From positions 1-64,000 of IMG/VR virus record IMGVR_UViG_3300027833_002080: a DNA stretch of 64,000 nt; one strand, written 5' to 3'. Position 1 is the first letter of the stretch, and each line of letters begins with the position of its first letter. Position numbers and translations under genes: made by a program. Source of the stretch: a virus. Below the pieces are notes generated by a model. The model was not told where the DNA came from. It saw only the letters and a list, made by a program, of their open reading frames with translations, and did not search any database. This document shows positions 9,635 to 39,626 of this stretch, in pieces.

Positions 9635-9642
9635 TATCTTTG
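9635..9642 (+). promoter_or_regulatory. TATCTTTG box, candidate promoter for small RNA
   Basis: TATCTTTG matches TAnnTTTG. About 20 bases upstream there is only TTTT (9611-9614) rather than TTTG, so the match is partial. It would start transcription about 9649, upstream of the strong terminator at 9758-9787. Confidence 0.4.
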
Positions 9643-9648
9643 TAAGGA

Positions 9649-9787
9649 CAAGGAATTTCGCTATCCTAAGAGTTTTATAGGAACGGTTGGCTAGGGCAGG
9701 TGTCATTTGATACTGTGTTTTACCATTGCACCATTACAACCAGGTACGGAAAATACTAAAGACCTCGCTATCAACGGGGTCTTTTTT
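9649..9787 (+). ncRNA. Candidate small RNA of about 140 nt
   Basis: No protein-coding frame fits this stretch, yet it ends in a strong plus-strand terminator and begins just after a TAnnTTTG-like box. GGTTG (about 9686) and CAACC (about 9738) can close a long domain, and the short hairpin GTGTC-ATTT-GATAC lies inside it. A terminator at this place needs a transcript coming from the left, and nothing to the left is coded on the plus strand. The exact 5' end is inferred. Confidence 0.4.
9758..9787 (+). terminator. Strong intrinsic terminator
   Basis: AGACCTCG (9760-9767), a 7-base loop CTATCAA, then CGGGGTCT (9775-9782) form an 8-bp stem with one G-T pair. T residues continue to 9787. It lies just before the 49-residue Cys-rich gene, so it could also act as an attenuator in that gene's leader. 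Confidence 0.8.
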
Positions 9788-9808
9788 AACCCCTAAATAA
9801 AAAAAATT

Positions 9809-9958
9809 ATGGCATGTAAGTGTGGAAAAAATGAAGAATGTAAATGTCAACAAAAAGACAATAATGCTTTTGATGACTATATGAAAGATTTAACAGAAAA
9901 AGATCAACCAACTTGTTCTATAGAGGATCAAGAAAATTGTGAAAACTGCGGAAGTTAA
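9809..9958 (+). CDS. Small Cys-rich protein (49 aa)
   Basis: The product starts MACKCGKNEECKCQQKD and ends CSIEDQENCENCGS. Seven cysteines fall into an N-terminal CxC...CxC cluster and a C-terminal set ending ENCENCG, separated by an acidic helix. This suggests a small metal-binding protein. It has an A-rich leader without a Shine-Dalgarno sequence, as usual in Bacteroidetes. It is isolated between two candidate RNAs. Function is unknown. Confidence 0.5.
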   Translation: MACKCGKNEECKCQQKDNNAFDDYMKDLTEKDQPTCSIEDQENCENCGS

Positions 9959-9969
9959 TATTAATTGAT

Positions 9970-9977
9970 TATATTTG
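9970..9977 (+). promoter_or_regulatory. TATATTTG box for the structured RNA
   Basis: TATATTTG is a perfect TAnnTTTG box directly after the stop of the 49-residue gene. The upstream position at 20-bp spacing reads CTGC rather than TTTG, so the upstream element is weak. Initiation is expected about 9984, exactly where the hairpin-rich RNA begins. Confidence 0.55.
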
Positions 9978-9983
9978 CACAGA

Positions 9984-10250
9984 AGCACTTTATAAGTATC
10001 ACCCCTGGGTAGCCAAAAAAGGGGTCAGACGTTGGATTGTAGTTCCTAAATAAGGAATAGAGTTTTCTCCAACAGCTTCGAAAGAGTAACGTATAGGCTT
10101 TAGTTAGGATAAATTGCACACAGGTAAGTGCGGTGAATTAACACCAGTATTATTATCCTTGGGTCCCCAATGGGAGCACTGCTAACAGCTGAAATCACAC
10201 TTGAAATCCAAAATCCAAGGGGGATAACTCTGTCTTTTTGGATCCTTTTT
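9984..10250 (+). ncRNA. Candidate structured RNA of about 270 nt, class unknown
   Basis: This gap has no coding frame but many helices. ACCCC/GGGGT pairs 10001-10005 with 10021-10025. GTTGGA/TCCAAC (10031-10036 with 10068-10073) encloses TTCCT/AGGAA. A three-way junction is closed by AGGATAA/TTATCCT (10106-10112 with 10153-10159) and contains hairpins TGCAC/GTGCG and GGTG/CACC. TCCC/GGGA follows at 10164-10175. It ends in a terminator and has a TAnnTTTG box at its 5' end. I compared it by eye with tmRNA, RNase P RNA, SRP RNA and group I intron cores and saw no convincing match. Function is unknown. Confidence 0.55.
10213..10250 (+). terminator. Terminator-like hairpin ending the structured RNA
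   Basis: ATCCAA (10213-10218) pairs with TTGGAT (10238-10243). The stem can be extended inward by G-T pairs, and the sequence continues CCTTTTT. The loop is large, so it is weaker than the terminator at 9758-9787. ATCCAA is also present as a direct copy six bases upstream. The U-tract ends nine bases before the late promoter. Confidence 0.5.
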
Positions 10251-10258
10251 AAAAAACC

Positions 10259-10290
10259 TTTGTATTGTAGCAGAAACTTTTATATATTTG
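10259..10290 (+). promoter_or_regulatory. Consensus Bacteroidetes promoter for the late arm
   Basis: TTTG (10259-10262), exactly 20 bases, then TATATTTG (10283-10290) match the Bacteroidetes sigma consensus completely. Transcription should begin about 10297, just upstream of the GroES-like gene start at 10312. This rules out the TTG at 10288 as the gene start, because it lies inside the promoter box. It probably drives the first part of the plus-strand operon. Confidence 0.8.
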
Positions 10291-10311: not shown

Positions 10312-10578
10312 ATGAAATTTACACCAAACAGTAACTGGGTAGTTCTACCCGATCCAACTTCAAACGAAACTGAATCAGGAATACTATTAGATGAGACTAC
10401 AGTTAGATCTCGTGCTAAGAGTAATATTCTTAAAGTGCTAGCCGTAGGCGGTCAATGCCATTTTGTAAAGGTAGGAGATACTGCTATAATAGATCCTAGA
10501 ACAGAAGCTATTCAAATGCCTATTGAAGGTCAAAACTGCTTATTAATTAATGAGTATCAAATTATAGGTAAAGAATGA
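10312..10578 (+). CDS. GroES-like co-chaperonin (Cpn10 family)
   Basis: The 88-residue product matches the Cpn10 fold in pattern: a start MKFTPNSNWVVLPDP (usual form rplgdRVlVkp), a mobile-loop-like segment TSNETESGILLDET followed by basic residues, then ILKVLAVGG, VKVGDTAIIDP and a closing LLINEYQIIGKE (usual form y.ii.e.dIlg.i). T4 gp31-type co-chaperonins work with host GroEL to fold phage capsid proteins, which fits its place at the head of the late arm. The ATG at 10312 is chosen because the in-frame upstream TTG lies in the promoter. Confidence 0.75.
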   Translation: MKFTPNSNWVVLPDPTSNETESGILLDETTVRSRAKSNILKVLAVGGQCHFVKVGDTAIIDPRTEAIQMPIEGQNCLLINEYQIIGKE

Positions 10579-12600: not shown

Positions 12601-12781
12601 ATGTACTGCATGCAATAAAGAAGTGGATCTTTCTACGCAAACAATAGTTGTTAAAGACGGAAATATAGTTTGTAAAGAAGCTGTATGCTGTGATAAATAC
12701 ATGACGGCTGTCAAAGGAAAATTTGAAGGCTTTGGTGGTATAATTAAAAAAGGAAATGGCTCAGTAGGTGGTAAATTCTAA
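12587..12781 (+). CDS. Small zinc-ribbon protein (64 aa)
   Basis: CTAC near the N-terminus and CKEAVCC in the middle provide two Cys pairs about 25 residues apart, a zinc-ribbon-like layout. The C-terminus is Gly- and Lys-rich (FGGIIKKGNGSVGGKF). It is sandwiched between two overlapping genes in the packaging block. The role is unknown. Confidence 0.55.
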   Translation: MAKYKCTACNKEVDLSTQTIVVKDGNIVCKEAVCCDKYMTAVKGKFEGFGGIIKKGNGSVGGKF

Positions 12782-14759
12782 GTTTAAAAATATTAATCGG
12801 ATCCGTCCTGCGGCAGTGCACTTCGAAACTTACTCGCACTATACTAATGCTCTACCAGGCACTAGAGAATATTACTCTTACTGGGATGAAGAAAAAAATA
12901 GATGCTTGTATGGGTATACTGCTGATGAGGGCACCGAAGATGCCCTTTATATCACAGGTTTTCATTACTTCTATTTAAACTATTGCCCAATTGATCGAGC
13001 AGTAGACGAAGTTATGCCAGACGGCTCTATACAATCTAAACGTGAAAGAACATTCCCATCATTCTATGACGGTGATCACGATTACTTCACACAGATAGAT
13101 AAAGCACGAGCTACAAACCGCCACATGGTAGTACTCAAGGCTCGTCGTAAAGGTTACTCATATAAAGCAGGTTCAATGCTTGCTCGTAACTACTTCTTTG
13201 TTAAAAACTCAAAGAACTTTGTATTTGCAGGGCAAAAAGAATACCTTATTGGTGATGGGCTCTTATCGAAAGCGTGGGAATTCTTATCGTTTATCGATGA
13301 CAATACTGCATGGGCTCAACCTCGTTTAAGAGATAGAGAAATGAGTAAGATGTCTGGGTATAAGAAAAAAGTAAATGGTATTGAAATTGAATTAGGAATG
13401 AAATCCCAAATAATGGGGGTATCGTTAAAAGACAATCCAGATAAAGTGAGGGGAAAGGCGGGAGAACTTGTATTCTTTGAAGAAGCAGGATCTTTCCCTG
13501 GACTCCTTAAAGCTTGGGAGGTAACTATGCCTACAATGCGTCAAGGGGCTAAAACATTAGGTCTTATGATTGCCTTTGGTACAGGTGGTACAGAAGGTGC
13601 AGACTTTGAGGCTATGGAAGAGATATTTTACAATCCAGCTGCATATGACTGCATGGATTATACGAATATCTGGGATGAAGGCTCTATGGGGACTAAGTGC
13701 GGATACTTTGTACCTATATATAAAAACTTAGATGGGTTTATAGATGACAATGGTAACTCTCTTAAGACTATAGCGGTCGAGCACGAAACAGAGATGCGTA
13801 ACAAGAAAAAAGGCGCAGCTGATGCTAAATCATTAGATCAATACATTGCTGAGCACCCTTTTTCTCCGCAAGAAGCAACTCTGCAAGTTACTGCAAACTT
13901 ATTTGATGTAGCTTCACTGCAAGAGCAATACAATTACGTAAAGTCTAGAAATTTAAGTTCTCTTGGGACTATAGGCTCTTTCTACCACACCGCGGAAGGG
14001 CAAGTCAAGTTTCGAATGAATGGAGATCTAAAACAAATTATGAGATACCCGCATAGACGGGAAGACGATAACACTGGAGGTGTTGTAATCTATGAGTCTC
14101 CGTATAAAAATGAGAAGCAACAAGTACCCATGAACTTGTATGTTATTTGTCATGATCCATACGGGCAAAATCAATCTGCAGATAGTACGTCACTAGGGGC
14201 GGCATATGTTATTAAGCGTCCAAACAATGTTTCTAGCCCAGATGATATTATTGTTGCTAGCTACATAGGAAGGCCTAATACATCAGACGAATATAACAGG
14301 AACCTATTTATGTTAGCTGAGTATTACGGCTGTAAGATAGGTTTTGAGAATGATCGTGGAGAGATAATTGCATACGCTAAACGATACCGCAAGCTCCACA
14401 AATTGCAAGTAGAGTTTGAGATGCTAGATAAAAAAAGCTTGCAGTCTAAAACAGTTAGACGTCAGTACGGTATGCACATGACTGAGCAAAGAAAAAAACA
14501 AGGGGAAATCTACATACGAGATTGGCTAATTACCCCAAGGTCTAAAGACGTAGACGGGAACACGACTTTAAACTTAAATAAGATATACGATCTTGCTTTG
14601 CTGCAAGAATTAATAAAATTTAACCACAAAGGAAATTTTGACCGAGTAATGGCTCTAATGATCGGTATGTACCATACCAGAGAACTTTATAATACTGAAG
14701 TTAAAGAAGTATTAGAAGACCGATCACATGATTCTTGGTTTGATGCTAACTATCATTAG
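12768..14759 (+). CDS. terL: Terminase large subunit
   Basis: The 663-residue packaging motor shows an N-terminal ATPase: a Walker A-like segment LKARRKGYSYKAG (about 122-134, the deviating form usual in terminases) and Walker B LVFFEEAG with the catalytic Glu (about 234). A C-terminal RNase H-like nuclease domain begins at ICHDPYG (about 460), with later acidic residues including FENDRGE. It translocates DNA into the prohead and cuts concatemers. The GTG start overlaps the preceding gene by 14 bases. The length is slightly above typical TerL (about 450-600). Confidence 0.9.
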   Translation: MVNSKFKNINRIRPAAVHFETYSHYTNALPGTREYYSYWDEEKNRCLYGYTADEGTEDALYITGFHYFYLNYCPIDRAVDEVMPDGSIQSKRERTFPSFYDGDHDYFTQIDKARATNRHMVVLKARRKGYSYKAGSMLARNYFFVKNSKNFVFAGQKEYLIGDGLLSKAWEFLSFIDDNTAWAQPRLRDREMSKMSGYKKKVNGIEIELGMKSQIMGVSLKDNPDKVRGKAGELVFFEEAGSFPGLLKAWEVTMPTMRQGAKTLGLMIAFGTGGTEGADFEAMEEIFYNPAAYDCMDYTNIWDEGSMGTKCGYFVPIYKNLDGFIDDNGNSLKTIAVEHETEMRNKKKGAADAKSLDQYIAEHPFSPQEATLQVTANLFDVASLQEQYNYVKSRNLSSLGTIGSFYHTAEGQVKFRMNGDLKQIMRYPHRREDDNTGGVVIYESPYKNEKQQVPMNLYVICHDPYGQNQSADSTSLGAAYVIKRPNNVSSPDDIIVASYIGRPNTSDEYNRNLFMLAEYYGCKIGFENDRGEIIAYAKRYRKLHKLQVEFEMLDKKSLQSKTVRRQYGMHMTEQRKKQGEIYIRDWLITPRSKDVDGNTTLNLNKIYDLALLQELIKFNHKGNFDRVMALMIGMYHTRELYNTEVKEVLEDRSHDSWFDANYH

Positions 14760-21916: not shown

Positions 21917-21950
21917 GTGGGGGAGAAATCCCCCACTTCTTTAACTTTTA
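21917..21950 (+). terminator. Intrinsic terminator after the capsid gene
   Basis: GTGGGGGA and TCCCCCAC form a perfect 8-bp GC-rich stem with a GAAA tetraloop, followed by TTCTTTAACTTTT. It would end or attenuate the capsid transcript and protect its 3' end. Confidence 0.8.
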
Positions 21951-24542: not shown

Positions 24543-24554
24543 TCATTAATATTA

Positions 24555-24588
24555 ATTATAAGGGGACAGGTTCCCCTTATAATTTTTT
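24555..24588 (+). terminator. Strong intrinsic terminator after the 311-residue protein
   Basis: ATTATAAGGGGA (24555-24566) and TCCCCTTATAAT (24572-24583) form a perfect 12-bp stem with loop CAGGT, followed by six T residues. It is the strongest intrinsic terminator seen in the late arm. Confidence 0.9.
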
Positions 24589-25118: not shown

Positions 25119-28100
25119 ATGGCTGCAGAACAACAAATTCTACGTAATCAATTTAATTTAAAAAGTAATACAATAGAACTACTAAATGGGTCTAAACCAT
25201 TAGAAGTAGGTAAAGCGTATGCTTTAATTTTACCTTTTAAAACCGATAGCGGAGAGCTTTACAGACAAAAGGATTTTACAATTCCTAATACTGAAAAAGA
25301 AGATGCGTCTCGAGTTCTTAGATTTGTTGACTTTGTACCTTTTATTAAATATTGTACGTTTGCAGTTCAAGCTATTAGAAACGTAAAAGGCACTAATCAA
25401 TACATTGGAAGCCTTTATTTACGTCAAGCAGATTATGCAACTCAACAAGAAATATCAAGATACACAGAGGCTTTAAAGCATTGGACTAGAGGAATAATCG
25501 ATGTAGTTGACAGAGATGGTAACGACATTGAAACATTACCTATTCTTACAACATTAGCTGAATTAACTAAAATTAAATCTATTGGTAAAGATTCTTGTAT
25601 TAATAGTTTTGATAATGGGTTTACCACTAAAGAAGGATTTACAGGAAGTTGTATTAGTTTTAATGACCCTCTTATAGTAAGAAAATGTACAGATCCAGCA
25701 GCTTTAAATTATAATACTGTAAAACTTATACCAGGTGAAACTGATGATTGCGCGTATGAACCGGGATCTAAAGCTCATGATGACGCTACTACTGTCAACA
25801 TTGCTGGTGGTATATACCATTTGTTGTTAGCTAATACAGGTGTTTATGGGCAATATGAGTTTTGGGTAATCCATGGAAGTATGTCAAGTCCTATCACAGA
25901 TTTATCTTGGGATACAAACTTAAGCGGATCTTTCACTGAAACTCACGCAGGAATAAATGGCCCTACAGTAACGTATGGCCCTGGAACGCACACTATTTCT
26001 GTTATAGTATCCCTAGGTGACAGTCCTTCTGGGTGGGATTTCATTAACAATGAAGTTCAGCTAACTATAGATCTTGTTGTTGAAGCTAATGTGGCAGGAT
26101 GTACAGATTTTAATGCATTTAATTATAATCCGAACGCTACTTCTGATGACGGGTCTTGTGAGGCTGTTCTTCGAGGGTGTATGGATAATGGATCTTATTC
26201 TACTACTACAACGTTAGTAAATAACCAAGGAAATAATAACACTTCTTTTACTATTACTTCTCCTGTTCCAGGAACGGCAGCAACTAATTACAATTCTAAC
26301 GTTAATGTTCATGATTGGAGGTCGTGTGAGTATACAGGTTGTACTGACCCTGAAGCAGATAACACTTTAGTAAACAATCCTTTAATAGTAGCAACAAATG
26401 TAACTCCGTGCACAGATAATTGCTGTGAATATACTGAAGATGTAAACGGATGTACTGATCCAGGAACTTTAGCTGCATCTACATACAACCCAAGTTCAGT
26501 GTATTCAACGTATGTAACTCCCGAAGCAAATATCGCAGATGTAAATCCAGCGTATAGTAATTTTAATTACAACCCTTATGCTACTGTAGACGATGGTACT
26601 TGTTTTGCAAAAAAACCGGGATGCATGGACCCTGAAGCATCAAATTATAGTGTGCCAATTGGTAATCCTCAATTTGATGTAAATTGGCATTTACAAAGTC
26701 TTTGTCAATATGAATATTGTGCTGATGTAAACGCAAATAATGATGTACAAAGTGCAGATCATGATGTTTATACAATGTCGTGGACTCAAGGTAATTTTTG
26801 GGATGAATCTTTAGCTACTGCAAACGGGTTGACAATAACTCCGACACATGATAGTTATTTAGACAACAACTCGTTGTGTACTTTTGATGTAGATGTTTTA
26901 GATATATGTAATATAAATTCTGAATTTGACGACTACGGTAATAATATTGATGCTGGTGTAATAGGGTATGCTAATACTGCTACTGCTGGAGAATTAGCTA
27001 CAACTACTAGTGGAGATGCATGTTTAGGTCAATTAACTGAAACTGCAAGTACAACTGTTAATGGTTTTACTTACAATACTCCAACTGCAGAAAAAGTTAC
27101 TTTACAAGTTATTGATCAAGATAATCCTGTTTTATTTTTAACAGATCCTGAAAAATATGGAACGCTTGTTTACACTTACACTGGTAGTACAGGCGGAGGA
27201 GCAAATATTACTTTACCTAATATTGACGAGTCATCTGCTACCACGTTAGCTGGGCAATTATCAGCTGCTGGATATAATAGCGATTTAGATCCTTCAGTGT
27301 ATTTTTATTTTAGAATTGTAGATACTGTTGAGAATTCTAATACAGGGCTTACATTAAACCCTGCAATTGATGAGCCTGTAAAGCATCAATTTAATAATGC
27401 AGAAATAGTAGAAGTAAGATATTCTGATGGAGCTTATTACTACTTACCTTCAACAGCTCCTGGAACTGTATCAACATTTCAAGCAGGATCTGCTAACACT
27501 ACAATACCTACAGGTTACGCTCCTGGAACTATCAATGGTTTAGTTTTAAGTAGTACGGCTACTAATGCAGGTGGAGGAGTAGATTGTAATCATGCTACAA
27601 TAGATGAAGGTACTGCTGCAGGTCAGTACATGTATACAGTGTACAGAATTAAAATGACCGCTCCTTGTAGCTTAAATGCTATAAACTTTTTAATTGGGTA
27701 TGACGCTGAAGCAGCATATCCTAATTTAAATATTCTTGCTGACCCAGCATTTAACGGGGAGACGCTTGGTTGTACAGATCCGATAGCCGATAATTATGAT
27801 GAAGACGCAACTTATAGTGTTTCAGTCCCAATGAATAATTGGTCTAATTACCTTGCTAATGGAGGATGTTTCATAACAGGATGTATCGATGAGTACTACA
27901 GCGGTAATTTAGATAATAATATTGTTGTTAGTGCAAATACACTTTCAGGTACTGATATACCAGTGCAAGTTGGACAATATTTAGAAGAATATGATGGCGT
28001 TATTTATAAAATTTATAATAGTCAAGCTTACATATGTCAATTAAATGATTATTTAATTGCTAACAGTGATCCACTATTTGATCTTACTGCTGTATTTGAT

Positions 28101-31100
28101 TTAACTTATTTACCAAACTCTTTTGATGTAATACCTAACGAATGGACAGTACCTTCAGCTGAAGACTTAATATCAATGTCTACAAACATTGCTTCAAGTG
28201 GATCTGGATTTTTAGGGGAGTTTAATTTTACTTCTGGAGAGTATTGGAGTAGCAGTCTTTCAGTATCAAATCCTAATCAGTACGGACAAACTTATAACAT
28301 AGTAACTAATCCTGCTACTACAGTAGATAGAGCGAATACTCAAAAGTACCGAATTAGATTACATAAAATAATACCATTAGCTGATATAATAAATGGCGAG
28401 GTAGATATTACTGATTGCGGAGAAAATGAAGAAGTTATAGGTTGTACAGACGAGACTGCAACGAATTATAACCCAGAAGCAACAACAAACATTAATCCTA
28501 TTGCAGGAGATACAGATCACGTGTGTCAATATGAATTTACAGTAAGTGATTATGAGGACGAATTATTGCCTATTATTCTTAATACTGAGGGCAATACTTT
28601 TGAGACATTAGAAGAATATGAAGAAAACGTAGACTCATATTTTAATACTATAGGATTTACTGATGACCTTTTATTGGCTCTTTATGGAGATCATATAAGT
28701 GGGTATACCTCTGCTGACGCAAGTATAGGTGTAACTATCCCTGCTCTTCCTTGTGTTTCAGAAATATATTCTGGGCTTAAAAATGAAGTATATACTAGCG
28801 GTAGTTATGATTTTAATTATACATCGCATGATCCTCGAGGCGCTAGTTCTAAAATTCAAGTAATTGGGCAGCAGCTGCTAGGCTCTGCAGAAAGAAACTA
28901 CAAAGTATATTTAAATAATCCAACAAAGGATGGTATTTTAAAGTCTACTATTGATGCGGGAGCTCACTTATCGGCTACGCCTTCAACATATTTATTAGCA
29001 GATGAAAATACTGTTATTTCTAGTATATACCCGCCTTCTCTGGCAGAAGCATTAGCACAAGAATTTAACAATCAAGGGTACCAAGGTAACATAAGTTTAA
29101 GTAACCTTGTAACTTATAGATTTAGGTTTGATAAAAATATAGTATTAAAAGATGGTGTAACTCATGGCGATATAATAAGTTATCTACTTAATGATACTTT
29201 TTTAAATACCTCGGAAGCTATAATTAAAGATGTTAAAGGGAATCCTTTATGGCCAGTATTTGACCATAATGATTTACATAAGGATATGGCAACTTATCCT
29301 TCCCTATCCGTCTTAGCTGGAGAAGATAGACGTTTTCATTTTGGGTTTACTCCAAATTCTAAATTTGAAGAGTACGGGCATTATGTAACAAATGGAGTAA
29401 ATTTAATAACATCAAATTCTAATTTTGCTTCTAATTTAAACGATTGGACAGTTATTCCTGGCTCTGCTAATAGTACGTTAGCTTGGAATGCTTCTTATAG
29501 TGGGTCAGCACAGAGAAGCCTTAGTACCGATGCATTAGGAAATAGAACTGGATTAAAGAGAAGTATTGCGGTAGTTAGTGGGAACAAATATAAAATTACA
29601 TATACGCGCGCAGTCGTTAATGTAGAAGCTGGTCAAACGCAGGCTACTAAAACTTATGTTGAAGTTCAGACTGCAGGTAATAATATTGGAGAGTTTACAG
29701 AAATAGCTGTACAGAATGAAACTAGCCCTAATCTTGTAACTACATCTGATACGTTTACTTATACTGGACTTGGCTCTACAGTAGATTTATATTTTTACTT
29801 TGACTCTCAAGTACAAGGATTTTTAAGTTCTTTTGAAGTTGAAAAAGTAATTCCATATCCTAATGGGTATGTTTATTCTGAAGATCCGTGTGATGACACT
29901 AAAGTTCCTTCTGCATTTGTATATGATGTTGTATTAGATATATCTAATGGATTAGGAGAGTTAGACTTTAGTCCGTATGTTGAATATGTAGATCCAGAAA
30001 ATACTGGATGTATGGATGCTACGGCATTAAATTATGATGAAGATGCTACATTTACAAATGGTAATTTAGCAGATTGTTTATATTACTTAGATAATTGTGC
30101 AGGTACTGGAGTAGATATAGAGGTAGATGTTGAGTCAGCAGATGAAGGATGTGGAAGAGAAATTACAGTTAAAGTTACAGCTTGTGATAATGTTGTGAGT
30201 AATGCTACTATTAGTATTATTGTGCTACAAAAAATAACAGATAATACAGGGGTATCACCGATAACCTCATTTGAACCTATATTTACAATTGGGGATATAG
30301 AGCCTTGTATTGACGGTGTATCAAACACTGATGGTGTTGCAATATTAGCAGGGTTTACTTATGACCCAACTACTACTCAGCTTTTTGCTGGAGCAAACGC
30401 AGAGAGTAATGTTACTTATATTACTGGGCAAACTGCAGGAGCAATTCCAATAAACACATATCACCCTGAATTTCAAATACAATACAGTGAATTTTATTTA
30501 GATCCAGAAAGTGGAGAAACTGAAGAATATTTATTTGATTACAATCCTGCTACAGACTTCCAAAGTGTAAACTTTACAATTGATCCAATTATAAATGGGT
30601 GTACAAATGATAGTTCATTTAATTACAATTCTAACGCTACATGCGATGATGGAACTTGTGTGGAGGTAGCAGAAGGTTGTACTGATGTAGCAGCATTTAA
30701 TTATGATCCATTAGCTAATACAGACGAAGGATGTATACCAGTTATTGAGGGATGTACAGATATTGAAGCATACAACACTAATTATACTACAGACGAAGTT
30801 GCATCTACAAGTCCTGCGGGATCTAATTATCTTTATGGTGACATACAAAATTTACCAGCTCTTCCAGATGTAGGAAATTTATCTATAAACACTCCAGGCA
30901 ACGAAGACCTTTGTTTTTATTGTACTCAATTACAGGTTTCAGATCAAGGTGAGCACATTGCACAAGAGATTACTACTTTACCTATTTCTCCAGATTTAGT
31001 TACTACAAAGCAGATTACATTTACATGGAATTCTACCATTAATGTAGATAACCAAGATGTTACATTAGCAGATAGCGATGGCAACCCTGTTGAAGTGCAA

Positions 31101-34100
31101 GTTAAGTATACCTATACTAATTATGCTTATACGTTTGTTCCTGATTTTGTGATGTTATATTTACAGAATCCACCGTGTAAAACTTCTACTGGCTTTACAA
31201 TAACGACTGAATCTGTAAGTTACAGTGATTTAAGATTAGGGGTAACAAAAGATTTATATATAATTAATACAGATAATAGTACTTACGGGCAATTAACTAA
31301 AATTGAATTTGTAGCATATTATAACACTGGAGATAACGGAGTGTCTAGATGTGCGCAAACTATTTCTACAGAAGTAGATTATATAGATCCAATTATGGGA
31401 TGCTTTGACTCTAACGCTTTTAATTATTATTTAAATAATAATTATACAGCTTCTAGTTCTTATAACTTCCCTAGTGAGGTCTGTGCCGCTGCCTCGGTTC
31501 CAATTGCCCAACCTACTTTAACTATACCAGATTTTTGCTACCCTATTATTACAGGTTGTACCAATTCTGAAGCAAGTAATTACACGCAGCCTAGTGGCAG
31601 TGTTCAATCTAATGTTAATACAGAAAGCGAGTGTGAGTTTGATGGGTGTACACAAGAGTGGGCAGATAACTACAGTTCAATAGCCACAGATGACGATGAT
31701 TCTTGTTACAAAGAAGGATGTACTAGAGCTTGGGCTGATAACTACGATGTCTTAGCAACTATCGATGATGGTTCTTGTTTTGCAACTGCTTGTACTCAGC
31801 CTAACGTATATACATCTCATTTCTGTTTAGATGATACTGACCCTTGTTTTAGTACTGCAGCAAATAATGATAATGGTATTAGTACAAACTATACTGCTGA
31901 TACAGCGTTAATTTCTGACGACACTTTATGTTTATATGCAGGGTGTACAGATAACGGGGAGATAAATTCATTTAGCAGTCAGTCTATAGTTTCTGATCAT
32001 TATGCAGACTTAACTTGGATTAACAACTTTTTAGTAGCAAATAATCTTACCTCGTACGTAACTACGTTACTTACGGAAATACCAGCTTTTGAAACTACCC
32101 CTCAAGATCCTGGTCAGCCAGCAGCTAATTATAATTCTTTAGCTACTGTAAGTGCTGATACTTGTAGCTATGAAGGTTGTACGGATTCTATTGCATCTAA
32201 TTATGATGCTGATGCTACAACAGATGATGGGTCATGTACTTACTTTGCATGTATAGAAGAGGGAGCTGCTAATTTTGGAGAAGGTATTACATCTGGGACA
32301 ACAGCAGACACTATTGATCTTAGTCTTGCTGCAAATGAATGTGAAGGTCCAAATTTATTATCTACAAACAGATTTAAATTAAATGAATACTGGGCAGAAG
32401 TTAATGCAACTGAGGGAGATTCTGAAGATTACACATTTACTTCCGCTTCTACTTACACGTCAGGGGTATTAACTAAAACTATTATTTCGCCTTTTAGTCC
32501 AAATGATAATCCGTACAGTATATTAGAACCTGTATTTGATGGAGGATTTACTCCTCAAGCTGCAAATGGGGTAGATATAAATACAACTATACAGTACCCT
32601 ACATATAATCAAGTAGATACAGGAAGTAATGATTACATTTATAGATATATTTTAAGAGTAACAATTTCCCGAACAAATATAAATGATTCTACTGATCTTA
32701 GTGATTACGAAATAAAAATTAAAGAGTACAGTGTATCTAACAGTCTTGATCCAAATAATTTAACTGCAGCACAAGTAACTAGTCTTGAGACTCAGAATGT
32801 TACTTTACTTCAAACTGTTACTCTTGCTTCGGTAGGGGATAATGTGTACGAAACAACTGATGGGTACATTCCTCACCAATTTGGTCAGGTAACAGTTGTT
32901 GAAATAAGTGGGGGTGGAGCTAATTCTGTATCTACAATTACAGACATGACTTTAACAAGAGATCTTTGTATAGATCCATTGTTAAATTTAGACTCTCCCG
33001 AAATGGAAGCGCTTAATAATCAAGAGATATATATTAACAGTGTAAACGTTGATTTCTATTCTGAACTTGGAGAGTCTTTAATAACAGATGGTAACTTTGA
33101 GGCTATGTTAGGTAATATTGTAGACGGTTACACTGAAGGAACTTTAATACAACAAAACTGGGCGGATTCTGCTGAAGTATTACCAGGAATATCTAATTGG
33201 TTAACACTGCATGGAAACATGACCGGCTCTGATTGGTTTAACCCTACAAGTATAGAAAGTTGGGATAGAGATTACTATGGATTATATCAACAAGCTATAT
33301 TAAACGTAAATGCTGATCCAAATCATCATGGAGCAATCTTAATGTCTGCGCCAAACGATGCTAATGACACATTTAAACCTAACGTCCATATTAGCCAAGC
33401 TGTTACATATACAATTGGTAAAATTTATAAACTTACGTTTACAGCCGCATTAGTTAAAAATACAGGTACTACTAATACCACTTTAAGTGTACATACAAAT
33501 GTAACGTACGACTCAACTGCAGGTGTCCAAACAACAGTAACAAATACTTCTTTAGTAGCTACTCAAGAAATTACAGAGGTTTTAACAGAGCATACTAGAT
33601 ACTTTACTGCAACAGCTGAGATGAATGGACTTTCTTTTTCAATACCTGGAAATAGTACATCTGTAAGAGTGTTATTTATCTCTGTAGCTGAAGCTACTCC
33701 TAATTTATTTAACTCAAACACAGATAGATGTTATTTATTTGGGTGTAATGAACCTTGGGCAACTAACTATAATCCCGACTTTGGGAATGAAGATTATTTT
33801 ATAAATGTACCTGCGGGTGAATTAGGACCACAGGGTGAAGCAGGATGCTTCTTAGAAGGGTGTATGAATTCATTAGCTGGTAATTACGATCCTAATGCAA
33901 CAATTGATGATGGTTCTTGTATTAAATATGGTTGTACAGATAATGGGTACGCTCCTAACAATACTTTATCTCCTTACCCACTAGGGCAAGAGGCAGATAA
34001 TTATGATCCAACAGCAACTATTAATGAAACAAGTGCTGATGATTTAACATCTCCATGTTTATACACGGGGTGTATGGAATTGACAATAAACGGTGTAGTA

Positions 34101-37100
34101 CAACAAAATTATAATGCAGCTTACAATGTTTCTGGTAATTGTTATTCTGAGCAAATAGGGTGTATGGATACTCAGTATTGGAATTATAATGATACTGATG
34201 GAGATGGTACTTATAATAATTTAACAGGAATTGAAGGGCAAGATATAAATGAACAATCTGACCCAAACACTTGCTGTTTAAATTTGTATGGATCTCCAAA
34301 TGAAGCCGGAAATGCTATTGTAGCAACTGTGCCACAACCGCTAACTCCGCCTAAAGACACTTATAATCCTATACAATTTTCTTTAAATACATATGATTGT
34401 GCTGGGAACGACGCTTCAGTCTTTGTAGGTCCTGCGCAGCTTAATGGAGTTTCTTATGGAACATTACCTTCTTTTAGTGATAGTACTGTACAAGTAAATA
34501 ATATAATAGTTCGCGCATATCCAGCTACAGGGACTGCGGGTAGTTATCAACCAGATTTAAGTAGTACTTTATTTACAGAGCACACTCCAACTTGGGAACA
34601 ATTAACTGCTGTAAACGGAAGTGAAATAGGAATTGAAGTACCGATTTACGATGTAGGAACAACGACGTTAGCAACATTTATAATCATAACTTTTAATTAT
34701 ACTAATGTTGCTCAATCTACTGAGTCTGAAAATTCAGGTTATAGTTGTACATACTCCTCATCATTAATTTTTGATAACGCTTGTCTAAGTACACAAGGGT
34801 GTTTAGATAATGGATATTTACCTAGTAATGCATCTCAAACTCCAGGGTTCCCTACAGTAGGGTTTAATCCATCATCAAGTATTCATGTGGATAGTACAGC
34901 TAATTGTAATGTTCCTTATGTATTAGGGTGTATGGATCAGTATTATGCTAAGTCTGCAGGAACAGGACAAAGTTTATTAGGAACTTCAAGTGCTCCTGCT
35001 ATTACGGGGACCTTATCTTTTAATTATAATAATAACCCTTCAGGTAATGATATAAGAGGAGTTGCTTATGACGGATGGAGTACGGCAGCTACAATTAACA
35101 TGTTTGATAATACTAATTCTGCTAATATAAACCCAGGTGCATTAATAGCAGAGTTTCATCCTTTATATGATGAAAGTACAGCAGCGACAGAAAATCAAGA
35201 TCCTAATGTTGGGACAGGTCCTGCTGAAGAATCTTTTAATGGAGCTTATTATGGATGTTTCCCTGTAGTCACTGGATGCTTAACAACTGGTAAGTTTAAT
35301 AAAAATAACTTCTACCATGCTGGTAATATACATCCACAAACAGGAGCCGCTTATAGTGCAACTCCGGGTGACCCTGGTAATATAGCTGGATTAACATTTG
35401 GAGCTAACGAGCCTCAAGATCCAACTATAAACCCTTTAACTTTAGTACCTTATACTGCTGAACAAATTAGACAAAATTTTCCGTATTTCTTTAATGTAAA
35501 TACTCAATCTACTGATGCAGCAACAAATTGTTATAACAGCATAGCAGGCTGCACGGATCCAACTGCAGCTAATTTTGTTGCGCTTACAAATAATGTAGAC
35601 GTAGATGTAAATACAGACAACGGTTCTTGTTGTTATGATGCAGCAGATATAACAGGCTTAACTGCCGCGCTTACTACTAATTTCTATAGTACTCTATATC
35701 AAGGTGCTGACGTTACTCTTTTAAATGGGCAGTATTATAATGACGAACTTACAGAGTCAACTTTAGACTTTACTCACGCCTCTTGGAGTAACATTACTTA
35801 CCCATCAGATGGTAGTACTATGCTTGCAGCAGTAAATGCAACTACATTAACTTCATCTACGTACACAGGAGACGCAATAATTTGGAGATTAGATAGTAGT
35901 GCAGGTGGAAGTGCGTTAACTACGGCGGACAACAGTATAATAAATCTAACAGATCTTAAACTAGTTTTAACTTCTACGCAAAAGTTTAACGTAAAGGTAG
36001 TCGCACTTAATAAAGATTTTGTTATTAATAGTATTGCATCTAGAGCTGCGTTTGTAGAGTCTCTTGAAAATCCTAATAACAATATTTCTAGACTTATATC
36101 TAGCCAAAATTACGAGTTAGGCGCTTTGAATCTTAATTTTGACTCTTCTAACGATTTGTCTATAGGAACTTTATATAAAGATTTAGTTCTCATTATAACG
36201 CATATAAACGAAGACAGTGTAAATTCAAGCACTATTTCTTTTTCAAAGTTTAAGATTAGTAAACGTACTTACGCTGCATTAACTATTTCGGCGGGTCTTA
36301 CTAATCTGATAGATAATCTTAGTAACTTTCCTAGTACATTATCTGGTTATACTGCAACGGTAAAGAATAGTTTAGGAGCTACAATATCTACTGTAACAGC
36401 AAATACTGCTGTTCAATATTTAGGTGTTATGTTACCTATTTATAAGTATGATTCATCTGCAGCTAATGCAAACGCTTACGGTGCTTACGCTCCAACATAC
36501 TCAAACCTTAGCACTCACAGTAATGCAACTAATTTTGTAGACCCTAATTTAGGTACACAGTTACATTTTAGTTTAAGTTACCTTGCTGCAGATGGTTCTA
36601 CAATTTGTACTGCTTCTACAGGAATTGAGTTTACTATTCCGATTGACTTTACAAATACATCAATTAATTATGGATGTTCTAATAATACTTATTTACAATA
36701 TTACCTTAATAATTATTTAGGTAACACATCAGCTATAACTAATTACACTCATAATGCTGGAATTGGAGCAGCTGTAACTATACCAAATGGAGATTGTCAA
36801 AATACGGCGTCTACAGGATGTACAGATGATAATTATTTAGGAGCATACCCAGATAAAGAACAGATAGGAACTGTTTCTTTAGATGCTAATAATGAAATAA
36901 GTCAAATTACTACACCATTTATTCCTAATCAATTTGGATACTTAGGTGCTGCTGGATTTAATAGTCCAACTTATACTGGGTCTTCTTTCCCTAACGTAGC
37001 AATAAATATTTCAAATAATTTGCAATGCGGGGACGAGATTATTTTTGGATGTTTAATTGATACTTTTGCTGAGTACTGGGGAGCTACTACAATTTCTGGG

Positions 37101-39626
37101 TCGCACACTCTTTATGGAGTCAACGAAGGCCAAGGTAATTTTACAGGAGAAGCAGGAACTTCTAATCTTTCTTTTGCAAATGTTTCTCAAGTTCATAATG
37201 TACCTGGATATGCAGACCACGCTTTATTAGAGGGGTGTGGCGATGCAACAGTAGCTGTAATAGGGTGTGCAACAGAAACTCAATCAGTTACTGCAGTTGT
37301 ACCAGACAGTGGTACGACAACAGGTGGAAGTGCAGGAACTTCAGTAGTAGGTGTTACTAGTAATGTGATATTCACAAGCACTACTACTACTTCAAATGTT
37401 TCTTATGGTACTTATGATTCTAACGTTAATGTTATTGGTTTAAGTGCTTGTGGAGGATTTGGTGGGTGTACAGACGATGGTTATTTAGAATATTACTCGA
37501 CACCTGCAGCTAATGTTTCAGACAGCGAAGTTGTTATTCCAATTAGTGAATGTGAAACTCTTGTTATTGTAGGGTGTACTGACAGTTCTTATACTGGATA
37601 CAATCCAGAAGCAACAATACATGATGGAGTTTCTTGCGGTACCCCAATTCTTGACGGATGTACCGACCCTTCTTTTTGTGAATATTATACAGAAGCACAA
37701 ACACTTTACAATGTACATACCGGTGAAACAGCTATAGTGTACCCTAACAATGATATAGGTACGTGTAAAAGTGTACAAGGGTGTATGAATCCTAATTATT
37801 TAGAAGCTTACGGGGAAAATTACAATAGTGCATTATTAGCAAGCATTAATGAGTATGAAATAACTGGTCCGCAAGTTTCAGAATGTAATAGTTTAACTGG
37901 TCAGTACTCTTTAGATGAGTATGCTGCAGCAAACCCTGAGTTAGCCCAAACACAAATAAACGATAACTACTATAATGAGGGGTGTAGTATTCCTATAGTA
38001 ATTGGTTGTACAGACCCAACTGCTGTAAATTATAACGTATTAGCAAATGTATCGTCTATTAATTCTGAAGGGGTTGTAAATGCTTCTTGTATATCTAAAA
38101 CTGAAGGCTGTACAGATTCAACAGCATTTAATTACGATCCTGAAGCTACTTTTGATGATGGTAGTTGTATAACTCTTGTAGAAGGGTGTACAAATAATAC
38201 CGCCTTTAATTTCAATTCAGATGCAAACACTAATGACGGATCTTGTATACCATTTATTTATGGTTGTATTGAAAGCACTTTTACTTTAAACAATACTACG
38301 TATACTACAGCAGCTACATCCTTAGAAGCAGAGTATGATCCAATAACAAATCCGGATATAACTGCTGCAAATACTCATTCACCTGCATTGTGTTTCCCAG
38401 AAATACTTGGGTGTACAGATGAAACAGCTGTAAACTTTAATAACTACATTTCAGCGACTCCAGATATAGGACAAGCTTTTGTGACTGATCTTAACGCAGC
38501 CTTTACAAATGTAAATACAGATAACGGATCATGCCTTGCTTCTGTAGTAGGTTGTATGGATCCTTGCGCAAATAATTACGAGGCTAGTGCTACCGTATCT
38601 GGTAGTTGTACTTACACTCCAGGATGTACTGATACTAGTGCAATAAACTACAATCCTGAAGCTAATCAGCTTGATACTACGTGTACGTACTGCGAAGACT
38701 GGTCTTTAGTACGTGCCGAGTCTTCTTATGTTACAGTTGTAGATAACACTTATTTTATAAATAATGTAAGTTCTTCTGATGGGAGCATAACAATAAACCC
38801 AGTATCTGCAAATGGAGTTACAAATAATTATGTAATTAAATGGACAGGTATTGCAACTGACGGAAGCATTGTAGATATTGCTGACAATACTACTACAGTA
38901 ACAGGGTTAGCTCCAGGAGAGTATACGTTTACTATATATACTGATAATCCTGCTTGTGCTCCTAGCCCAACAGATCCTGTATCTAATGTAGTTACCACTT
39001 ACATACATCAAACAGATTTATCGTGTACGTATGATACAGGAGACACTGAGTCTTACTCAACTTTACCGCTAGCTATTAGCAGCACAGTAACAGTAGGTAC
39101 GGATAATTATGGGTGTACAGATAATGAAGGATATGATCCAGGATTTTACAATCCGGTAGGAGAGTTAACTATACACCCTTTGGGAGGTCTTAATAATACG
39201 TATACATCAAGCACAGATGAGATTCAGTTGCCAACAAATACTGCTATCAACTATGATGGTGCAGCAGGTATAGATGATGGCTCATGTAATTATGCAGGAT
39301 GTACTGACCCAGACGCTTTAAATTATGATAGTTTAGCTACTGTTAATGACAATTCTTGTCAGTACATTGTAGGATGTACTATAGTATCTGCGTGTAATTA
39401 TCATCCAGCAGCTGTTCTTTCAGGACCTTGTGAATATGCAGCTGTATTTAGAAACTGCTTAGGAGAATGTGTACATCCAGATACTGGAGCTACTTTAGCT
39501 ACAGCCGATAATCCATTAGGAGAATCTCTAGAGAATCCAGGTTTATGTCCAAACCAAGTGCTAGGTATATGTTTAGATCCAACAGCAATTAACTTTACAC
39601 CTATCGGTGATAACATAATAATATAA
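25119..39626 (+). CDS. Giant repeat protein with about 50 GCTD...DDGSC modules (4835 aa)
   Basis: This single 14.5-kb frame encodes a tail-fibre-size or larger surface protein. The first about 190 residues are distinct (AAEQQILRNQFNL...), followed by modules of the form GCTDPxAxNYxPxAxxDDGSC, intact or degenerate. By eye there are roughly 50 GC(T/M/L)-D starts, separated by beta-rich inserts of very different length, up to several hundred residues. Asp/Asn-rich modules with paired Cys suggest calcium-binding or disulphide-stabilised units. There is no signal peptide, so it should be assembled in the virion. It lies between connector and tail-fibre genes. Role inferred: fibre, adhesion or capsid-surface spike. 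Confidence 0.75.
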   Translation: MAAEQQILRNQFNLKSNTIELLNGSKPLEVGKAYALILPFKTDSGELYRQKDFTIPNTEKEDASRVLRFVDFVPFIKYCTFAVQAIRNVKGTNQYIGSLYLRQADYATQQEISRYTEALKHWTRGIIDVVDRDGNDIETLPILTTLAELTKIKSIGKDSCINSFDNGFTTKEGFTGSCISFNDPLIVRKCTDPAALNYNTVKLIPGETDDCAYEPGSKAHDDATTVNIAGGIYHLLLANTGVYGQYEFWVIHGSMSSPITDLSWDTNLSGSFTETHAGINGPTVTYGPGTHTISVIVSLGDSPSGWDFINNEVQLTIDLVVEANVAGCTDFNAFNYNPNATSDDGSCEAVLRGCMDNGSYSTTTTLVNNQGNNNTSFTITSPVPGTAATNYNSNVNVHDWRSCEYTGCTDPEADNTLVNNPLIVATNVTPCTDNCCEYTEDVNGCTDPGTLAASTYNPSSVYSTYVTPEANIADVNPAYSNFNYNPYATVDDGTCFAKKPGCMDPEASNYSVPIGNPQFDVNWHLQSLCQYEYCADVNANNDVQSADHDVYTMSWTQGNFWDESLATANGLTITPTHDSYLDNNSLCTFDVDVLDICNINSEFDDYGNNIDAGVIGYANTATAGELATTTSGDACLGQLTETASTTVNGFTYNTPTAEKVTLQVIDQDNPVLFLTDPEKYGTLVYTYTGSTGGGANITLPNIDESSATTLAGQLSAAGYNSDLDPSVYFYFRIVDTVENSNTGLTLNPAIDEPVKHQFNNAEIVEVRYSDGAYYYLPSTAPGTVSTFQAGSANTTIPTGYAPGTINGLVLSSTATNAGGGVDCNHATIDEGTAAGQYMYTVYRIKMTAPCSLNAINFLIGYDAEAAYPNLNILADPAFNGETLGCTDPIADNYDEDATYSVSVPMNNWSNYLANGGCFITGCIDEYYSGNLDNNIVVSANTLSGTDIPVQVGQYLEEYDGVIYKIYNSQAYICQLNDYLIANSDPLFDLTAVFDLTYLPNSFDVIPNEWTVPSAEDLISMSTNIASSGSGFLGEFNFTSGEYWSSSLSVSNPNQYGQTYNIVTNPATTVDRANTQKYRIRLHKIIPLADIINGEVDITDCGENEEVIGCTDETATNYNPEATTNINPIAGDTDHVCQYEFTVSDYEDELLPIILNTEGNTFETLEEYEENVDSYFNTIGFTDDLLLALYGDHISGYTSADASIGVTIPALPCVSEIYSGLKNEVYTSGSYDFNYTSHDPRGASSKIQVIGQQLLGSAERNYKVYLNNPTKDGILKSTIDAGAHLSATPSTYLLADENTVISSIYPPSLAEALAQEFNNQGYQGNISLSNLVTYRFRFDKNIVLKDGVTHGDIISYLLNDTFLNTSEAIIKDVKGNPLWPVFDHNDLHKDMATYPSLSVLAGEDRRFHFGFTPNSKFEEYGHYVTNGVNLITSNSNFASNLNDWTVIPGSANSTLAWNASYSGSAQRSLSTDALGNRTGLKRSIAVVSGNKYKITYTRAVVNVEAGQTQATKTYVEVQTAGNNIGEFTEIAVQNETSPNLVTTSDTFTYTGLGSTVDLYFYFDSQVQGFLSSFEVEKVIPYPNGYVYSEDPCDDTKVPSAFVYDVVLDISNGLGELDFSPYVEYVDPENTGCMDATALNYDEDATFTNGNLADCLYYLDNCAGTGVDIEVDVESADEGCGREITVKVTACDNVVSNATISIIVLQKITDNTGVSPITSFEPIFTIGDIEPCIDGVSNTDGVAILAGFTYDPTTTQLFAGANAESNVTYITGQTAGAIPINTYHPEFQIQYSEFYLDPESGETEEYLFDYNPATDFQSVNFTIDPIINGCTNDSSFNYNSNATCDDGTCVEVAEGCTDVAAFNYDPLANTDEGCIPVIEGCTDIEAYNTNYTTDEVASTSPAGSNYLYGDIQNLPALPDVGNLSINTPGNEDLCFYCTQLQVSDQGEHIAQEITTLPISPDLVTTKQITFTWNSTINVDNQDVTLADSDGNPVEVQVKYTYTNYAYTFVPDFVMLYLQNPPCKTSTGFTITTESVSYSDLRLGVTKDLYIINTDNSTYGQLTKIEFVAYYNTGDNGVSRCAQTISTEVDYIDPIMGCFDSNAFNYYLNNNYTASSSYNFPSEVCAAASVPIAQPTLTIPDFCYPIITGCTNSEASNYTQPSGSVQSNVNTESECEFDGCTQEWADNYSSIATDDDDSCYKEGCTRAWADNYDVLATIDDGSCFATACTQPNVYTSHFCLDDTDPCFSTAANNDNGISTNYTADTALISDDTLCLYAGCTDNGEINSFSSQSIVSDHYADLTWINNFLVANNLTSYVTTLLTEIPAFETTPQDPGQPAANYNSLATVSADTCSYEGCTDSIASNYDADATTDDGSCTYFACIEEGAANFGEGITSGTTADTIDLSLAANECEGPNLLSTNRFKLNEYWAEVNATEGDSEDYTFTSASTYTSGVLTKTIISPFSPNDNPYSILEPVFDGGFTPQAANGVDINTTIQYPTYNQVDTGSNDYIYRYILRVTISRTNINDSTDLSDYEIKIKEYSVSNSLDPNNLTAAQVTSLETQNVTLLQTVTLASVGDNVYETTDGYIPHQFGQVTVVEISGGGANSVSTITDMTLTRDLCIDPLLNLDSPEMEALNNQEIYINSVNVDFYSELGESLITDGNFEAMLGNIVDGYTEGTLIQQNWADSAEVLPGISNWLTLHGNMTGSDWFNPTSIESWDRDYYGLYQQAILNVNADPNHHGAILMSAPNDANDTFKPNVHISQAVTYTIGKIYKLTFTAALVKNTGTTNTTLSVHTNVTYDSTAGVQTTVTNTSLVATQEITEVLTEHTRYFTATAEMNGLSFSIPGNSTSVRVLFISVAEATPNLFNSNTDRCYLFGCNEPWATNYNPDFGNEDYFINVPAGELGPQGEAGCFLEGCMNSLAGNYDPNATIDDGSCIKYGCTDNGYAPNNTLSPYPLGQEADNYDPTATINETSADDLTSPCLYTGCMELTINGVVQQNYNAAYNVSGNCYSEQIGCMDTQYWNYNDTDGDGTYNNLTGIEGQDINEQSDPNTCCLNLYGSPNEAGNAIVATVPQPLTPPKDTYNPIQFSLNTYDCAGNDASVFVGPAQLNGVSYGTLPSFSDSTVQVNNIIVRAYPATGTAGSYQPDLSSTLFTEHTPTWEQLTAVNGSEIGIEVPIYDVGTTTLATFIIITFNYTNVAQSTESENSGYSCTYSSSLIFDNACLSTQGCLDNGYLPSNASQTPGFPTVGFNPSSSIHVDSTANCNVPYVLGCMDQYYAKSAGTGQSLLGTSSAPAITGTLSFNYNNNPSGNDIRGVAYDGWSTAATINMFDNTNSANINPGALIAEFHPLYDESTAATENQDPNVGTGPAEESFNGAYYGCFPVVTGCLTTGKFNKNNFYHAGNIHPQTGAAYSATPGDPGNIAGLTFGANEPQDPTINPLTLVPYTAEQIRQNFPYFFNVNTQSTDAATNCYNSIAGCTDPTAANFVALTNNVDVDVNTDNGSCCYDAADITGLTAALTTNFYSTLYQGADVTLLNGQYYNDELTESTLDFTHASWSNITYPSDGSTMLAAVNATTLTSSTYTGDAIIWRLDSSAGGSALTTADNSIINLTDLKLVLTSTQKFNVKVVALNKDFVINSIASRAAFVESLENPNNNISRLISSQNYELGALNLNFDSSNDLSIGTLYKDLVLIITHINEDSVNSSTISFSKFKISKRTYAALTISAGLTNLIDNLSNFPSTLSGYTATVKNSLGATISTVTANTAVQYLGVMLPIYKYDSSAANANAYGAYAPTYSNLSTHSNATNFVDPNLGTQLHFSLSYLAADGSTICTASTGIEFTIPIDFTNTSINYGCSNNTYLQYYLNNYLGNTSAITNYTHNAGIGAAVTIPNGDCQNTASTGCTDDNYLGAYPDKEQIGTVSLDANNEISQITTPFIPNQFGYLGAAGFNSPTYTGSSFPNVAINISNNLQCGDEIIFGCLIDTFAEYWGATTISGSHTLYGVNEGQGNFTGEAGTSNLSFANVSQVHNVPGYADHALLEGCGDATVAVIGCATETQSVTAVVPDSGTTTGGSAGTSVVGVTSNVIFTSTTTTSNVSYGTYDSNVNVIGLSACGGFGGCTDDGYLEYYSTPAANVSDSEVVIPISECETLVIVGCTDSSYTGYNPEATIHDGVSCGTPILDGCTDPSFCEYYTEAQTLYNVHTGETAIVYPNNDIGTCKSVQGCMNPNYLEAYGENYNSALLASINEYEITGPQVSECNSLTGQYSLDEYAAANPELAQTQINDNYYNEGCSIPIVIGCTDPTAVNYNVLANVSSINSEGVVNASCISKTEGCTDSTAFNYDPEATFDDGSCITLVEGCTNNTAFNFNSDANTNDGSCIPFIYGCIESTFTLNNTTYTTAATSLEAEYDPITNPDITAANTHSPALCFPEILGCTDETAVNFNNYISATPDIGQAFVTDLNAAFTNVNTDNGSCLASVVGCMDPCANNYEASATVSGSCTYTPGCTDTSAINYNPEANQLDTTCTYCEDWSLVRAESSYVTVVDNTYFINNVSSSDGSITINPVSANGVTNNYVIKWTGIATDGSIVDIADNTTTVTGLAPGEYTFTIYTDNPACAPSPTDPVSNVVTTYIHQTDLSCTYDTGDTESYSTLPLAISSTVTVGTDNYGCTDNEGYDPGFYNPVGELTIHPLGGLNNTYTSSTDEIQLPTNTAINYDGAAGIDDGSCNYAGCTDPDALNYDSLATVNDNSCQYIVGCTIVSACNYHPAAVLSGPCEYAAVFRNCLGECVHPDTGATLATADNPLGESLENPGLCPNQVLGICLDPTAINFTPIGDNIII

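Follow-up and report, generated by a model that had tools for sequence, protein, structure and literature searches.

A new class of two-domain structured RNA at the head of the assembly genes of marine crAss-like phages

Background

The window analyzed here, a stretch of 64,000 bases out of a 65,081-base IMG/VR virus record, carries on its plus strand, from position 9982 to about 10238, a new class of structured RNA whose two-domain fold is preserved by compensatory base changes. The RNA is about 255 bases long and heads the rightward arm of virus-assembly genes; the marine crAss-like phages that carry it form a large group and have a single copy at each locus. Other phage lineages combine its 5' domain with different 3' domains, and there it mostly precedes the terminase module.

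Few known phages are as abundant as Crassvirales. The marine crAss-like phages that carry the RNA are relatives of crAssphage, a virus of the gut. A term search of a 2023 review of Crassvirales (PMC10136315) found no mention of non-coding RNA, and no description of the RNA was found among open-access papers. As far as Rfam 15 and these papers extend, the RNA thus appears to be novel. An RNA of crAss-like marine phages and several unrelated phages is probably a part of widespread phage biology that has gone undescribed. Such a conserved, lineage-crossing RNA points to an undescribed RNA-using step in phage growth, and the alignments, helices, predicted start site and two covariance models make its role directly testable.

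Locus and extent of the RNA

The phage was judged to be crAss-like since its terminase large subunit (TerL; 12768-14759, plus strand, phrog_6681) showed about 41% identity to Suoliviridae TerL and its portal 22-33% identity to Crassvirales proteins. An earlier sequence-only reading of this DNA had pointed to a gap without a coding frame between two transcription arms. The gap was confirmed to be non-coding, and the RNA is indeed flanked by a leftward replication arm and a rightward structural arm. The extent proposed in that reading, 9984-10250, was corrected: the most likely 5' end is 9982, predicted from the promoter and helix P1, and the 3' end, placed where conservation fades, is uncertain at about 10238. 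The first gene past the RNA encodes a GroES-like co-chaperonin (10312-10578, plus strand; phrog_3188, E 1.4e-11). A GroES-like ORF came next after the RNA in 131 of 149 non-redundant loci; across these loci, the gene families that recur upstream of the RNA lie nearly all on the opposite strand, and the terminase begins about 3 kb downstream. In class A the RNA was always first in, and co-oriented with, the rightward late arm.

The RNA had been called of unknown class, and the covariance models of the 4227 Rfam 15 families, applied to the window at the gathering threshold, gave no match to it. Likewise, tmRNA, RNase P, SRP and group I cores, which had not been recognized by eye, were not found with the Rfam models, and ARAGORN called no tmRNA or tRNA gene in the window. 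A search of a 651-base stretch with E values up to 10 returned two weak matches to leader models, both on the opposite strand and outside the RNA. The 6S models, 6S-Flavo included, did not match the RNA even at E 10, nor did the phi29 pRNA model. The roles suggested earlier, those of a 6S-like, antisense or structural phage RNA, are less certain than the reading as a structured RNA. Among 12 further loci the sole Rfam 15 match was a tRNA in L170.

Secondary structure and covariation

The 5' domain (9982-10079, plus strand, as are all elements of the RNA) comprises P1 (9982-9986/10075-10079), P2 (10001-10005/10021-10025), P3 (10031-10036/10068-10073) and P4 (10043-10047/10053-10057), together with a hairpin between P1 and P2, P1b (9987-9990/9994-9997), present only in the subtype of this window. 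Covariation was observed in P1, P2 and P4, and in P3 between subtypes; the domain is also matched by covariance model R1. The 3' domain (10084-10202) was derived from alignments, mutual information and covariation, and comprises an outer helix (10084-10087/10199-10202), P5 (10097-10103/10182-10189), a three-way junction of P6 (10106-10112/10153-10159), P7 (10116-10119/10128-10131) and P8 (10132-10135/10142-10145), and P9 (10164-10167/10172-10175); confidence is lowest for P9 and the outer helix. The helices named in the sequence-only reading were recovered, including the AGGATAA/TTATCCT pairing of the three-way junction, which is P6. A conserved element, AAGGGGGA..AACT.T.TC, occupies 10217-10238 in both alignments, and a similar element occurs in class B (see below).

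The alignments were made with MAFFT, which is blind to structure, and contained 85 sequences including the window (A1) and 60 sequences (A2). A2 supports 11 helices with 96.4% of cells paired, a percentage biased towards structure since the structure was derived from those same sequences. Stronger evidence is the number of double-changed cells, 292 as compared with 82.5 +/- 10 in shuffles and 16-31 when the partners were slid, with double-sided changes in 26 of the 50 pairs. Compensatory changes therefore exceeded both the shuffled and the slid controls, and the covariation across homologues that had been proposed as a check is strong. In A1, P3, P6, P7 and P8 were 99.6% paired with 139 double-changed cells. 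Covariation was clearest in P1, P4, P6 and P7: in A2 one pair of P1 was GC in 50 sequences and CG in 10, and another CG in 38 and UA in 18; pairs of P6 were AU in 45, GC in nine and UA in six, or CG in 25, GC in 24, GU in six and AU in five; and one position of P4 showed five pair types. RNAalifold, run on its own, recovered most of these helices, and many of the top mutual-information column pairs fell inside them.

Single-sequence folding energy gave a z of -1.0, with 33 of 200 shuffles folding equally well and no signal on either strand, and was therefore not counted as evidence for structure. The structure was settled by the homologues; folding energy alone would have missed the fold. A long-range CCUUGG/CCAAGG pairing, attractive to the eye, was dropped, as changes at its G position were uncompensated. 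Pairing of UUUUCUCC with GGGGGA is possible but invariant, and the change of GGA/UCC to GGG/CCC in L229 speaks for P3 instead. In six loci (L013, L037, L092, L106, L186 and L190) a long insertion between the P3 strands replaces the usual P4 hairpin.

Homologues and distribution

A search based on the GroES-like neighbour yielded contigs with the same RNA, including L003 and the more diverged L004. In L003 the RNA was 100% identical, with 83% nucleotide identity in the neighbouring gene and 84% in its protein; in L008, L036, L040 and L062 the RNA was 91% identical as against 73-80% for the neighbouring gene. The RNA is thus more conserved than the gene adjacent to it.

A degenerate motif of the three-way junction, CACAGGTNNGTGNNNTGAATTAA, matched IMG/VR 97 times as compared with about two matches estimated by chance, and all 97 sit within one long consensus. 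Two motifs from other parts of the RNA gave at least 119 IMG/VR matches each, and an nhmmer profile found one match per locus in at least 185 loci, the nine weakest of which are divergent members retaining chiefly the 5' domain. These counts are of contigs from one viral collection (IMG/VR), many of them fragmentary, among the matches listed.

Compared by blastn with 50,697 named phages, five members gave short chance matches only. Covariance models R1 and R2, run without a positive control on the genomes of 13 named phages that are crAss-like or infect Flavobacterium, gave nothing credible, with two R2 matches at E of about 0.5. A strongly diverged form could escape both searches. Among 84,980 prokaryote genomes the 3' motif had no match, and the 5' motif had four, of which one is real: L214, a contig of 6.3 kb from a Cryomorphaceae MAG, carries a copy of the RNA. 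In the crAss-like phage cr60_1 (L198) a 381-nt gap at 2431-2811 occupies the relative place of the RNA, where the coding strands diverge ahead of a chaperonin gene, and contains short inverted repeats; neither RNA model matches it, and an RNA that has diverged or is of another kind may lie there.

Recurrence of the 5' domain in other phages

Model R1 represents the 5' domain and was built with the window and the divergent loci excluded. It matched the window at 9992-10083 with E 4e-14, the divergent loci L155, L159, L166 and L170 at 2e-9 to 7e-8, and others at about 1e-4 to 5e-2. Since the divergent loci had been fetched by a 5' domain motif, that motif is not independent evidence in them. P1 lies outside the fetching motif and could be drawn in most of the 16 divergent members from sequences that differ considerably (Fisher's combined statistic against shuffles 54.9, 32 degrees of freedom, p about 0.007).

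A number of these phages fall outside the crAss-like group, and their terminases are unrelated. Class B phages have a TerS/TerL/portal operon (phrog_51, phrog_38 and phrog_156), and two further groups with the 5' domain carry a Terminase_3 TerL and a Terminase_6N TerL, respectively. Inspected by eye, the class B promoter regions are without TAnnTTTG. The class B RNA is directed into the TerS/TerL operon in ten contigs. In L176 it is directed away from that operon and faces an ORF that has its L225 homologue on the opposite strand; when further contigs with an inverted RNA were sought, L176 alone was returned. Eight contigs (L125, L149, L153, L176, L219, L221, L225 and L229) come from uncultured phages in which the class B RNA heads a distinct TerS/TerL/portal operon.

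Promoters and transcript ends

The TAnnTTTG box reported at the 5' end is present at 9970-9977 on the plus strand (TATATTTG) and corresponds to a Bacteroidota sigma-A -7 box, which in Flavobacterium psychrophilum occupies -12 to -5 relative to the start (PMC9723704); the predicted start is 9982. The spacing between box and P1 is exactly 4 nt in 57 of 60 main-subtype members and also in the window, with a range of 4 to 9 nt in the P1b subtype. Since the box ends 4 nt before the first paired base of P1, transcription probably starts at that base, nucleotide 1 of the fold.

A second TAnnTTTG promoter, for the GroES-like gene, lies at 10283-10290 (plus strand), in agreement with a late promoter directly after the RNA. 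Such a box was found between RNA and next ORF in 74 (57%) of the 129 members in which that ORF was readable, and was lacking in 55. Most of the latter have an ORF of varying kind 16-51 nt past a conserved AAGGGGG; as the ORF starts so soon after the RNA, the RNA would be the 5' end of an mRNA in these members.

The terminator-like hairpin described at the 3' end exists in this window but is specific to its subclade, and no conserved intrinsic terminator was found downstream of the RNA in relatives. Intrinsic terminators were almost absent from the first 5-10 kb downstream (813 kb of sequence): a first count in the RNA-side arm gave none, and looser criteria gave 11, only two of them non-coding. 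Strong terminator-like hairpins occur in the rightward structural arm at 21917-21936, right after the major head protein gene, and at 24554-24584 (both plus strand).

Possible role of the RNA

The reading that we favour, with about even confidence, is that the late programme includes this RNA as a discrete phage RNA acting in trans. It would be the first product that host RNA polymerase makes from the late arm, which serves assembly and packaging, and its 3' end would probably arise by processing of a read-through transcript, since no intrinsic terminator is conserved. It would then form the RNA part of a ribonucleoprotein acting in phage assembly or cell takeover. Trans action is favoured by the second promoter in 57% of members, from which downstream genes could be transcribed without the RNA, by the varying next ORF, by the defined 5' end and by the inversion seen in one contig, L176. 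On the other hand, the RNA is strictly co-oriented with the late arm in class A, ORFs without a promoter of their own follow it in many members and a terminator is lacking, all of which suggests that the RNA is part of the late transcript.

These last features would suit a leader of the late operon acting in cis, whose nascent RNA modifies host RNA polymerase in the manner of HK022 putRNA or otherwise controls the transcript, an explanation that we regard as possible though doubtful. Its antitermination version, equally doubtful, has polymerase passing pauses and terminators across the roughly 50-kb structural arm, and the two hairpins within that arm would suit an antiterminator. Against a leader of this kind stand the many members carrying a promoter right after the RNA, as polymerases starting there would lack it, the near absence of intrinsic terminators from the first 5-10 kb, and L176, which departs from the same-strand placement at the 5' end of an operon seen in class A and in the ten class B contigs. 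Riboswitch-like or translational control of the GroES-like gene seems improbable: that gene is next in most loci, and the RNA lies within the 5' UTR where no promoter intervenes, but the gene has its own promoter past the RNA in 74 members, the closely following ORFs of the other 55 are of several unrelated kinds, and class B phages have different genes at that place. That the element is DNA, an origin or packaging start site mimicking an RNA, is very improbable; its position between divergent arms near the terminase genes and its long invariant stretches would fit, whereas helices kept through double changes and G-U pairs, and a promoter placed to start at the first helix base, are what an RNA would show.

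For the favoured trans-acting RNA, a role in assembly or packaging is the leading guess, a tentative one made from position, as packaging genes are nearby in several unrelated phages; location in a late module is weak evidence of function, and the host transcription or translation machinery is about equally likely as the target. A further reading, rather unlikely, is that phages with unrelated terminases and promoter types have in common a phage-specific, trans-acting RNA, built on one conserved 5' domain with exchangeable 3' domains, that serves as an RNA component in assembling virions or packaging DNA in phages beyond the phi29 group.

Comparison with known RNAs

The put RNA is far smaller than about 255 nt, phi29 pRNA has a fold different from the one described here, 6S RNA consists of a single long hairpin interrupted by a central bubble, and GOLLD, ROOL and OLE are larger than the present RNA. 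Like phi29 pRNA, the latter is a structured RNA encoded by phages and lies near packaging genes in several lineages, but it lacks an Rfam match and is known from sequence alone. It shares with 6S-Flavo RNA (RF01685) the Bacteroidota setting and a sigma-A promoter, but has two multi-helix domains with a three-way junction. HK022 putRNA mediates processive antitermination, acting in cis in the early operons of lambdoid phages (PMC9378689). It shares with the present RNA its phage origin, its synthesis by host RNA polymerase and its place close to the 5' end of a long operon transcript; in contrast, the RNA described here belongs to a late arm, often has a second promoter directly downstream and shows no sequence relation that we could find. 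GOLLD, ROOL and OLE are large, highly structured RNAs found by comparative genomics, some of them in phages (PMC12286853), OLE being about 600 nt (PMC12054373). The RNA of this study resembles them in being highly structured, first seen by comparative genomics and, as for some of them, phage-borne, but matches no Rfam family.

Other features of the window

A 4835-residue ORF at 25119-39626 (plus strand) had no credible PHROG match. Another candidate non-coding RNA, about 150 nt long, lies at 9635-9793 (plus strand); its TAnnTTTG box occupies 9635-9642, and it ends in a strong terminator-like hairpin, AGACCTCGCTATCAACGGGGTCTTTTTT. This candidate had no Rfam match and a folding z of -1.0, and it precedes the main RNA in 13 loci. 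Between the two lies a small cysteine-rich ORF (9809-9958, plus strand) ending in CENCGS, and a family related to it was found upstream of the RNA in 16 loci.
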